This document shows, one piece after another, positions 5,725 through 8,382 of a stretch of DNA of 41,057 bases (positions are counted from its first letter, which is position 1; the number at the start of each line of letters is the position of its first letter). The stretch lies in contig CAIPYC010000089.1 of assembly GCA_903869185.1 (NCBI GenBank), positions 1-41,057 on the forward strand. Reading direction: 5' to 3'. The notes under the pieces were generated by a model that was given only the letters and a program-made list of their open reading frames with translations, had not been told where the DNA came from and did not search any database. A program made the translations under genes and the position numbers. Source of the stretch: an uncultured cyanobacterium. GTDB taxonomy: Bacteria; Cyanobacteriota; Cyanobacteriia; Cyanobacteriales; Microcystaceae.

Positions 5725-7446
5725 ATGAACTCGAATAAACAAACCAAAGTTGCTGCAGCGATAGATTTTGGTACATCCTGCTCGGGCTATGCGTATGCCT
5801 TTCGAGATGATGGGAGGATTATTGGGCGTTATCAGTGGGACAAACAACCATTTAGCTATATCAAAACTTTAACCCAAAGTCTTTACAATGGCGATGGTAC
5901 TCTCGAAGCCTGGGGCTACGGGGCACTCTCTCGGTTCGCTACGCTAAGACAATCAAAAGAATCTCAATCCTACAGTTTCTTTCCAACTTTTAAAATGGCT
6001 TTGCGCGAAAGTCATAAACGTACTATTGACGGTCCAATTGCCGTTGCTCACAATGGAAGAGAATTTCCTGTGGTGGACTTGGTGGCCGATTATCTTCGCG
6101 AAATCGCCAATCTTCTCAGACAAGAATTGCAAAATGCTACCAGTAACCAACTTAAAGATCAAGAGATTTTTTGGTGCCTGAGTATACCGGCAATTTGGAA
6201 AGAAGATGAAAAATCCCTGATGCGTATTGCCGCAATCCAAGCTGGTTTAATCAGTGAGGATCCTGGTGATCAAGATCGTCTTCTTTTGGTTTTAGAGCCT
6301 GAAGCAGCAGCTCTATACTGCCAAGAGAAAATGCAATTACAATTGAGCGTTGGTAAGCGCTTTATGGTTGTTGACTGTGGAGGTGGTACTGTTGATATTA
6401 CTGTTCATCAAGTCTCTGTCAATGGAGCTCTAGAGGAAGTAGCCACAGGCACTGGAGGTGCTTATGGTTCTACCTATGTAGATCGTCAATTCATTGAATA
6501 TCTTGGCAACAAACTAGATAGTAAAGCTTTGGAGCAATATCAAGGCCAAGATCCAATCGGTTGGCTGGAGTTGATGTCCAACTGGGAGCGCAAAAAATGT
6601 GCTTTTGAACCCGATAAAACGCCAATTACCTATCTTGAGATTCCCAATCGTCTTTACAAGATTCTCTCACGCGATTTTCCAGCAGTTTTGGCAAAACTTT
6701 CCAAAGATCAAAATCAAGATGATGAAACTATACATTTGAGCAGAGAGACAATGGAATCTCTATTTAATCCAGTCTTAGATGGTCTAGTTAACAAGGTTAA
6801 GGAGCAATTTGCGCTTTTAGAAGGAATCGGTTGCGATTTTATCTATCTTGTGGGAGGGTTTTCTACCTCGCCAGTGCTTCGTCAACGCATGCTAGATGAA
6901 TTTGCAAATAAGGCACAAATTATAATGCCCCCCTTGCCTGGCTCAGCAATTGTAGAAGGGGCGGTTTCTTTTGGTTTAAATCCAGAGATGATCAGATCGA
7001 GGCGTTCCCGTTTAACTTATGGTTGTAATGTCTCTCGGCCATTCGAAGAAAATCTAGACAGCGCGAGAATTTCCTCAGCTTTTGAACTAGATGATCGACG
7101 CTATATGTTTAACAGATTTTGCCGCTTTGTCAGTTCCGGAGAGAGTATTGATATAGATCAAGTTATAAGGCATACTTTTGTTCCCACATCCAGTGACCAT
7201 GATTCGCTCAATTTCTTCTTTTTTGCAACTAAAAAAGAGAATCCCCGTTATGTTGATGAGCCTGATATAGAGAAATTGGGGGAGCTTGAAGTTGATATCG
7301 CCTCAACAGTCGGACAAAAAGATCGCCGAATAGAGGTCTCTATGAGTTTTGGTAAAACTGAAATTGTTGTTGTCGCCAAAGATCTCCAAACCAATCAACT
7401 CTATAAAACCAAATTTCGCTTTTCTGCTACATATGCAATATTCTAG
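5725..7446 (+). CDS. HSPA12-like Hsp70 family ATPase/chaperone
   Basis: A divergent Hsp70 of 573 residues. The actin-fold ATPase motifs are intact: phosphate-1 loop AAIDFGTSCSGYAYAF (residues 11-26), LVLEPEAAALYC (188-199), phosphate-2 RFMVVDCGGGTVDITVHQV (212-230) and the adenosine loop IYLVGGFSTSPVLRQRM (373-389). The wording of these motifs (SGYA, EPEAA..YC, GGGTVD.TVHQ) resembles the HSPA12 subfamily more than DnaK. After about residue 430 comes a beta-rich region ending IEVSMSFGKTEIVVVAKDL, like an Hsp70 substrate-binding beta domain. There is no room for a normal alpha-helical lid and no C-terminal EEVD/acidic tail. Nine bases downstream starts a GrpE-like gene, suggesting a dedicated nucleotide-exchange partner. 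Clients unknown. Confidence is high for the fold, moderate for the subfamily. Confidence 0.85.
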   Translation: MNSNKQTKVAAAIDFGTSCSGYAYAFRDDGRIIGRYQWDKQPFSYIKTLTQSLYNGDGTLEAWGYGALSRFATLRQSKESQSYSFFPTFKMALRESHKRTIDGPIAVAHNGREFPVVDLVADYLREIANLLRQELQNATSNQLKDQEIFWCLSIPAIWKEDEKSLMRIAAIQAGLISEDPGDQDRLLLVLEPEAAALYCQEKMQLQLSVGKRFMVVDCGGGTVDITVHQVSVNGALEEVATGTGGAYGSTYVDRQFIEYLGNKLDSKALEQYQGQDPIGWLELMSNWERKKCAFEPDKTPITYLEIPNRLYKILSRDFPAVLAKLSKDQNQDDETIHLSRETMESLFNPVLDGLVNKVKEQFALLEGIGCDFIYLVGGFSTSPVLRQRMLDEFANKAQIIMPPLPGSAIVEGAVSFGLNPEMIRSRRSRLTYGCNVSRPFEENLDSARISSAFELDDRRYMFNRFCRFVSSGESIDIDQVIRHTFVPTSSDHDSLNFFFFATKKENPRYVDEPDIEKLGELEVDIASTVGQKDRRIEVSMSFGKTEIVVVAKDLQTNQLYKTKFRFSATYAIF

Positions 7447-7455
7447 AGGTGTTTT

Positions 7456-8382
7456 ATGTTTGAGGAAAATGACAATGATAATAAAATTGCTCGGCTTATA
7501 GATGTCTATCAATGGCTAAAGAACTTAGCCTATTTGCTTTCTAATTCCCAGGAAAGTATTTCTGTAAAAGCAGATGATGTACGCAAACTAAGTGAGCATA
7601 CCAAAGAGGGAATATTCCTGCTCAAAAAAACACAGCAGAATATTAATGAACTATCGCAACAGATAACTGATCTTAGGCAAGAAATTCAAGCAAATTCCTT
7701 GGTGGACTCCCTGTTGCAAAATAAATACCAGCAACAAGCGGCTGAGCTGGAGCGCTCTGTTGCCCAGATTACCCAGCTAGAAGAGAGCAGAGGTATTATC
7801 TTGGCTGAATTAGCCTCATTAAAAACCGATCTTTCCACTCATTACCAAAGTGATCGACCTAAGCATTTCGTTATTATAGACAGATACAAAACACTCAAAG
7901 AGCAACATATCGATCCTCTTGTTGCAGATTTATTTCATGGAGTTCTAGAAATTGAACCAGAATTGGCTAGATCCCGCAGAGAAGTAATCCATAATATCAA
8001 GGGAGCTTTTTCTCGAACAGTTCTATCAATTGGTCAGCAATCAGGGACAAAAGATCCAAGCCAAAGAACAGAAGAAGTTTTTGAGCGTTTTCTAGAGCTT
8101 TTGCCTGTTACCTCTTTTTTAGATAACCTTTTCAAAGACCGAATCAGAAATACAATTTATTCTGTCTTGGAGTTTTTGGATGATGCTATCAATTGCCAAC
8201 CGCCAGCTCTATTTGTCTTTTACCAGAATGAGGCTTTTTCAGCTGACAAACATGAGCCTGCTAAAGGTTATGCGGATGATGGAACAGTAATCACAACGAT
8301 CTACCCCGCTTATCTTGTCAATCAAGAGGTAAAAGTTAAAGCGCTTGTTCTGACCGATTCCCAGGCAATCGAACATTATTGA
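7456..8382 (+). CDS. Coiled-coil protein with a GrpE-like C-terminal domain
   Basis: A 308-residue protein with a GAGGTG ribosome-binding site, 9 bp behind the Hsp70-like gene. Residues about 35-130 are Gln/Glu/Leu-rich heptad-like helix, probably a dimerising coiled coil. Residues 140-250 look helical. The C-terminus resembles the GrpE beta domain: F-x-x-x-x-H-E at 261-267 (compare FDPxxHEA in GrpE), then DGTVITTIYPAYLVNQEVK followed by VKALVLT (275-300), compare PGTVxxVLQKGYLLNxRVxRPAxVxV. Order and spacing of these parts match GrpE: long helix, helical bundle, terminal beta domain. I infer a nucleotide-exchange factor or adaptor for the upstream Hsp70-like protein. It is longer than ordinary GrpE and very divergent, so a database search could miss it. 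Confidence 0.62.
   Translation: MFEENDNDNKIARLIDVYQWLKNLAYLLSNSQESISVKADDVRKLSEHTKEGIFLLKKTQQNINELSQQITDLRQEIQANSLVDSLLQNKYQQQAAELERSVAQITQLEESRGIILAELASLKTDLSTHYQSDRPKHFVIIDRYKTLKEQHIDPLVADLFHGVLEIEPELARSRREVIHNIKGAFSRTVLSIGQQSGTKDPSQRTEEVFERFLELLPVTSFLDNLFKDRIRNTIYSVLEFLDDAINCQPPALFVFYQNEAFSADKHEPAKGYADDGTVITTIYPAYLVNQEVKVKALVLTDSQAIEHY

Follow-up and report, generated by a model that had tools for sequence, protein, structure and literature searches.

Bacterial GrpE is the nucleotide-exchange factor of DnaK, and the locus described here raises the question of whether an Hsp70 of a different build may possess an exchange factor of its own. The window, the whole 41,057-nucleotide stretch of DNA from an uncultured cyanobacterium of the Microcystaceae that was analyzed, contains a gene for an Hsp70-type ATPase and, immediately behind it, a gene for a coiled-coil protein (hereafter, the partner), which had been proposed from the letters alone to resemble GrpE at its C terminus.

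An Hsp70-type ATPase without a lid

Both open reading frames are intact and lie on the plus strand with a gap of 9 bp, in line with the original prediction. The first (positions 5725 to 7446) encodes the Hsp70-type ATPase of 573 amino acids, and the second (7456 to 8382), which is also found directly downstream of the Hsp70 gene in relatives, encodes the partner of 308 amino acids. A sequence reading places the putative ribosome-binding site of the partner gene (AGAGG, 7445 to 7449, plus strand) 6 nucleotides ahead of its ATG, where it overlaps the stop codon of the Hsp70 gene (7444 to 7446). This overlap suggests that translation of the two genes may be coupled. The pair is flanked by genes for an asparaginase (PF01112) and a glycosyltransferase-like protein, and reading of the translations revealed a homoserine dehydrogenase-type protein downstream on the opposite strand and phycobilisome-type genes farther along the window. 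Examination of these surrounding genes gave no functional link to the pair. The genome also has a separate grpE next to a dnaK; its DnaK-type genes number three in total, one of them truncated at a contig end. The cassette thus exists alongside a housekeeping dnaK/grpE set.

The nucleotide-binding domain of the Hsp70 spans residues ∼1 to 424 (5725 to 6996, plus strand), as indicated by PF00012, by alignment to DnaK with hhalign, and by the invariant ATPase residues. The PF00012 match lies above the cutoff and is confined to residues 126 to 396 (E = 7e-11), and, when the profile of the Hsp70 family is compared with that of 28 cyanobacterial DnaK proteins, 290 columns of the domain align (P = 3e-19). 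Twelve residues (D14, G16, T17, K90, E191, D217, G219, G220, T222, D224, G377, and G378) do not vary among the 16 family members, and the genome's own DnaK has the same residue at each aligned position, so that the ATPase motifs are intact, as first read. In a search of solved structures (PDB) with the Hsp70 profile, the top match was DnaK as solved in complex with GrpE (1DKG), a result that shows no more than a DnaK-like ATPase domain.

The C-terminal domain, comprising residues ∼425 to 573 (6997 to 7443, plus strand), is conserved over ∼150 amino acids in the 16 members, is beta-rich by prediction, and displays the successive motifs RRSxLTYG, MxFGxTEIxVxAxD, and RF. Because the protein stops ∼150 amino acids past the ATPase domain, the alpha-helical lid is absent, which bears out the initial remark that there was no room for the helical lid of DnaK. 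An AlphaFold2 model of low confidence (pLDDT of 37, two-sequence alignment) contains no C-terminal helices. Only the last 25 residues of the domain align to the end of the DnaK SBD-β (P = 0.006; score of 27.3 versus a maximum of 27.1 in 200 controls), and the domain is possibly a remodeled SBD-β. Compared with DnaK, the window protein presents the nucleotide-binding domain fold of the Hsp70 superfamily with all catalytic residues in place, but it is highly divergent, its C-terminal domain is not clearly an SBD-β, and the lid is missing.

The wording of the Hsp70 motifs resembles that of HSPA12, and we take the HSPA12 label to be plausible; no HSPA12 chain was among the matches listed in the PDB sequence searches. 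The vertebrate proteins HSPA12A and HSPA12B are described as Hsp70s whose ATPase domain is divergent, as it is here, and which show no resemblance to the canonical SBD (PMC2266713); ADP-dependent binding of a client has been reported for human HSPA12A (PMC6345817). A nucleotide-exchange factor of HSPA12 was not found in the literature searched.

Relation of the partner to GrpE

The partner presents a predicted long helix or coiled coil at residues ∼39 to 131 (7570 to 7848, plus strand), as suggested by coiled-coil-type Pfam matches and low-confidence AlphaFold helices. This is followed by a C terminus with the motifs F-x4-HE, DGTV, YLVN, and VKALVLT, and both features are present in the sequence as originally reported. 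Searches of the window partner against Pfam, NCBIfam, PADLOC models, and PDB sequences returned only coiled-coil noise and no family above the cutoff, and its AlphaFold2 model (two-sequence alignment; pLDDT of 57, and ∼30 in the beta domain) is too poor to show a fold. Across relatives, the partner varies from 236 to 708 amino acids, with a very variable N terminus and with SH3-like or helix-turn-helix regions added in several cases. The 16 aligned C termini share the consensus F-x4-[HQ]E, G-x-[IV], P-[AGV]-Y-x-V, and K-A-x-V-x-T, in this order.

A profile search had been named at the outset as the analysis that could refute a GrpE relation of the C terminus, and the relation was found. The partner profile, built from these 16 C termini (13 cyanobacterial and three from Streptomyces), aligned in hhalign with a profile of 27 cyanobacterial GrpE sequences, the match covering 43 columns within the GrpE beta domain (probability of 93%, P = 3e-7, score of 45.1). 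The 800 column-permuted controls (400 per profile) reached maxima of 22.4 and 28.1, and the reversed profile reached 10. The 13 cyanobacterial members scored 49.6, the set without the member closest to GrpE scored 43.7, and the close clade of the window scored 41.8; the three Streptomyces partners alone gave a score of 15, which is no match. The Streptomyces and cyanobacterial C termini are homologous to each other (P = 5e-10; score of 55.3 versus a null maximum of 19.5).

A hidden Markov model of the beta domain was also run against 3,753 open reading frames from 139 loci, a set in which GrpE is enriched because GrpE loci were fetched deliberately, yet in which they remain a small minority. 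GrpE ranked directly behind the partner family, and the best matches outside the family were all GrpE. The entries of this list that fall beyond the label pattern are the partners of G039, G590, and L028 and one GrpE locus. A model built from cyanobacteria only also recovered the Streptomyces partners from the same set. An artifact of the coiled coil was considered as the source of the GrpE match and rejected, given that the matching region is outside the coil and that the signal stands up to permutation. On the basis of the hhalign match, the permutation controls, and the search of open reading frames, the C terminus of the partner (residues ∼257 to 302; 8224 to 8361, plus strand) is assigned as a GrpE-type beta domain.

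The curated models do not reach this assignment. PF01025, the Pfam family matched by the largest number of partner C termini, hits 5 of the 16, all below the cutoff (best E = 0.012), and the best score in any partner locus is 18.5 bits versus a cutoff of 25.8, which is never attained. In whole genomes, it touches the partner loci of G320, G614, and G559 at the positions of the beta domain and a longer stretch in G537; it has no match in the window partner. Solved GrpE chains in the PDB were not found by the partner profile at E < 10. The helical domain of GrpE (coiled coil plus four-helix bundle), a part that also contacts DnaK, gave a generic coiled-coil alignment with the partner (P = 4e-4). 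The original description of the C terminus as GrpE-like therefore holds for the beta domain, the only specific part of the match, but not at the level of the PF01025 cutoff. Like GrpE, the partner contains this beta domain (F-x-P-x2-HE, G-x-V, GY, and KA-x-V in the homologous columns) and a long N-terminal coiled coil, and its gene adjoins an Hsp70 gene. It differs in falling below every model cutoff, in a beta domain whose HE-to-GY stretch is ∼4 residues shorter, in a variable N terminus and a helical region not recognizable as that of GrpE, and in being fixed to a lidless Hsp70 rather than to DnaK.

Conservation and gene neighborhoods of the pair

Relatives were retrieved through the Hsp70, by searching 389 genomes of the order with a profile. 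The family is distributed patchily, in 16 of these genomes from 10 genera. The partner lies directly behind the Hsp70, at 0 to 115 bp, in 12 intact cyanobacterial loci of nine genera (the window, G000, and G571, G245, G660, G455, G492, G039, G590, G614, G551, G559, and G537; L012 and L047 are one and the same G571 locus). On all four Streptomyces plasmids inspected, an Hsp70 ∼30% identical to the cyanobacterial proteins is followed 7 to 10 bp on by a partner of 236 to 244 amino acids, which is annotated as “hypothetical protein” and carries the same C-terminal motif. The adjacency of the pair is conserved across two phyla, Cyanobacteria and Actinobacteria, and the other outcome named as a possible refutation, that the two genes would not be neighbors in relatives, did not occur. 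Chance adjacency was rejected because the gene order is kept in both cyanobacteria and Streptomyces; for the observation as a whole, chance is excluded by this conservation and by the permutation controls. The pairwise identities of the Hsp70 and the partner covary across loci (r = 0.90), as expected from shared inheritance and by itself no proof of contact. A scan of viral contigs and a phage search returned no relatives.

Several loci are damaged or rearranged. In G320, G610, and G460, the Hsp70 itself is broken, with the partner or its remains adjoining; the G320 gene (L025, 7583 to 9403) has an internal direct duplication of ∼130 codons and a broken start, with a partner remnant behind it. 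In G661 (L052, 6900 to 8260, minus strand), an intact Hsp70 is accompanied by a partner that occupies its usual place but contains two in-frame stops, reflecting a pseudogene, an assembly error, or read-through, and the C terminus of this partner is among those closest to GrpE of all members. The exception to the paired arrangement is a second copy in G455 (L059, 6538 to 9396), where a coiled-coil protein of ∼600 amino acids forms one fusion protein with a truncated Hsp70 ATPase domain, with neither the Hsp70 C-terminal domain nor the partner. The same ∼600-amino-acid protein precedes the Hsp70 elsewhere, and the fusion suggests that the two work together.

The pair occurs in four contexts. 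It stands alone in the window, G571, G245, G660, and the Streptomyces plasmids, with mostly different neighbors, and is thus a portable cassette. In G039, it is accompanied by vWA, radical-SAM (PF13353), coiled-coil, and AAA_2 genes, and G590 has the same downstream order. In G455 and G492, and similarly in G661, the neighbors encode a double AAA+ protein of 880 amino acids, a zinc-ribbon/coiled-coil protein, other coiled-coil proteins, and a radical-SAM protein. The fourth context includes a beta-flower-like protein of ∼230 amino acids, the coiled-coil protein of ∼600 amino acids, or both (G551, G559, G537, G614, G320, and G610). None of the four arrangements has an immediately adjacent J-domain gene; in G320, the nearest one lies ∼2.3 kb away and is divergent. 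The idea of a self-contained module fits the window, where the pair stands alone, but has to be qualified for the many relatives with larger operons. Two of these, at L049 (4572 to 15986) and L024 (6899 to 15259), combine the pair with AAA+ ATPases, a radical-SAM protein with a single 4Fe-4S cluster, and several family-less coiled-coil proteins, and constitute an undescribed multigene system.

Proposed mechanism and alternative readings

The beta domain of GrpE inserts into the DnaK cleft and opens subdomain IIB (PMC4753570; PMC10825016), and it is the part of GrpE with the most contacts and the one that opens the cleft (PMC4753570). The reading that we favor, and regard as fairly probable, is that the two genes specify an Hsp70 and a nucleotide-exchange factor dedicated to it, a pair in which the lidless Hsp70 would hold a client and the partner would release ADP, probably making it a private ATP-driven chaperone switch. 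We infer dimerization, Hsp70-partner binding, ADP release, and client control, as follows: the lidless Hsp70 in the ADP state would hold a specific client or complex through its C-terminal domain, and the partner, probably a coiled-coil dimer, would wedge its GrpE-type beta domain into the ATPase cleft, shift subdomain IIB, and free ADP. Rebinding of ATP would reset the switch, and the variable N terminus and coiled coil of the partner may tether or select the client.

The same beta domain could instead be a docking module, with the partner acting as an adaptor that links the Hsp70 to a client or scaffold, or directs it there, and exchanges no nucleotide. The long and variable coiled coils of the partner, the SH3-like or helix-turn-helix regions of several relatives, and a helical contact region not recognizable as that of GrpE are compatible with this role, as is the L059 copy, which lacks the partner and has the ∼600-amino-acid neighbor joined to the Hsp70 domain. 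However, in GrpE the beta domain accounts for most of the contacts and for the opening of the cleft (PMC4753570), and every catalytic residue is kept in the Hsp70, so that a reset step should be needed; we consider pure docking unlikely. It is improbable that the domain belongs to another family, such as eukaryotic MIEAP, with GrpE likeness arising by convergence and the partner being some other regulator. PF16026 does match 3 of the 16 partner C termini up to the last model position, with a best E value (0.0023) lower than that of GrpE, but GrpE matches more members, is strongly favored by the permutation controls, and comes first behind the family in the search of open reading frames, while PF16026, taken per genome, touches only two partners, and weakly. 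MIEAP and GrpE may also share the domain, in which case this would be no true alternative; an example of the PF16026 similarity is found at L052 (6930 to 7493), and MIEAP could carry the same beta domain. A more far-reaching version, to which we give very little credence, would have the C terminus of MIEAP (mitochondria-eating protein, SPATA18) be this beta domain, MIEAP-type proteins be exchange factors of eukaryotic HSPA12, and the cassette be ancestral to the HSPA12-MIEAP pair.

The pair might also be part of an antiphage or other conflict system, with the Hsp70 as a threshold switch for effectors rather than a chaperone. The patchy distribution within the order, the plasmid carriage in Streptomyces, and the AAA+, vWA, and coiled-coil genes in the operons of relatives would fit such a role, and HSP70 with GrpE is present in described conflict systems, those of the GAP1-N2 GTPases, whose neighborhoods sometimes include a further HSP70 that has no peptide-binding domain (Kaur et al. 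2020, PMC7159879). As in the window, an HSP70 gene, at times without a peptide-binding domain, lies there beside an exchange factor. Those systems have a recognizable GrpE, a GTPase, and DnaJ/FNIII genes, whereas the window partner is not recognized as GrpE, the pair has no GAP1-N2 GTPase or DnaJ/FNIII genes beside it, and no GTPase was found among the operon genes of relatives that were scanned. Neither window protein matches a defense family, the operons of relatives yield only generic AAA+ and coiled-coil matches, and the window neighbors are metabolic and photosynthetic, with no effector domain, all of which makes a conflict role very improbable. The CnuD proteins of CoCoNuT systems (PMC11090510), with Hsp70-like NBD/SBD architecture, are likewise Hsp70-like ATPases in coiled-coil-rich bacterial systems, but they have degenerate ATPase motifs and McrB/McrC neighbors, whereas the motifs of the window Hsp70 are intact and McrBC is absent.

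The GAP1-N2 neighborhoods also limit the novelty first attributed to the gene context, since HSP70 with GrpE had already been described there (PMC7159879). What appears to be new is a GrpE-related partner that escapes curated models and is tied to this lidless Hsp70 family in both phyla; no published description of this pair was found in open-access full texts, and one may exist elsewhere. If the favored reading of a dedicated exchange factor is true, atypical Hsp70s of Cyanobacteria and Actinobacteria would have recruited exchange-factor modules privately, and the pair would offer a simple bacterial model for the working of lidless, possibly HSPA12-like, Hsp70s. A family whose members are currently annotated as “hypothetical protein” could then also be given a name.

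Other cyanobacteria have a second, short, recognizable GrpE (open frames of 155 to 172 amino acids) within a few kilobases of an Hsp70-like gene of ∼740 codons, as at G131:C146 (36963 to 42620) and G054:C1 (2064413 to 2070264). This is a separate accessory Hsp70/GrpE set.
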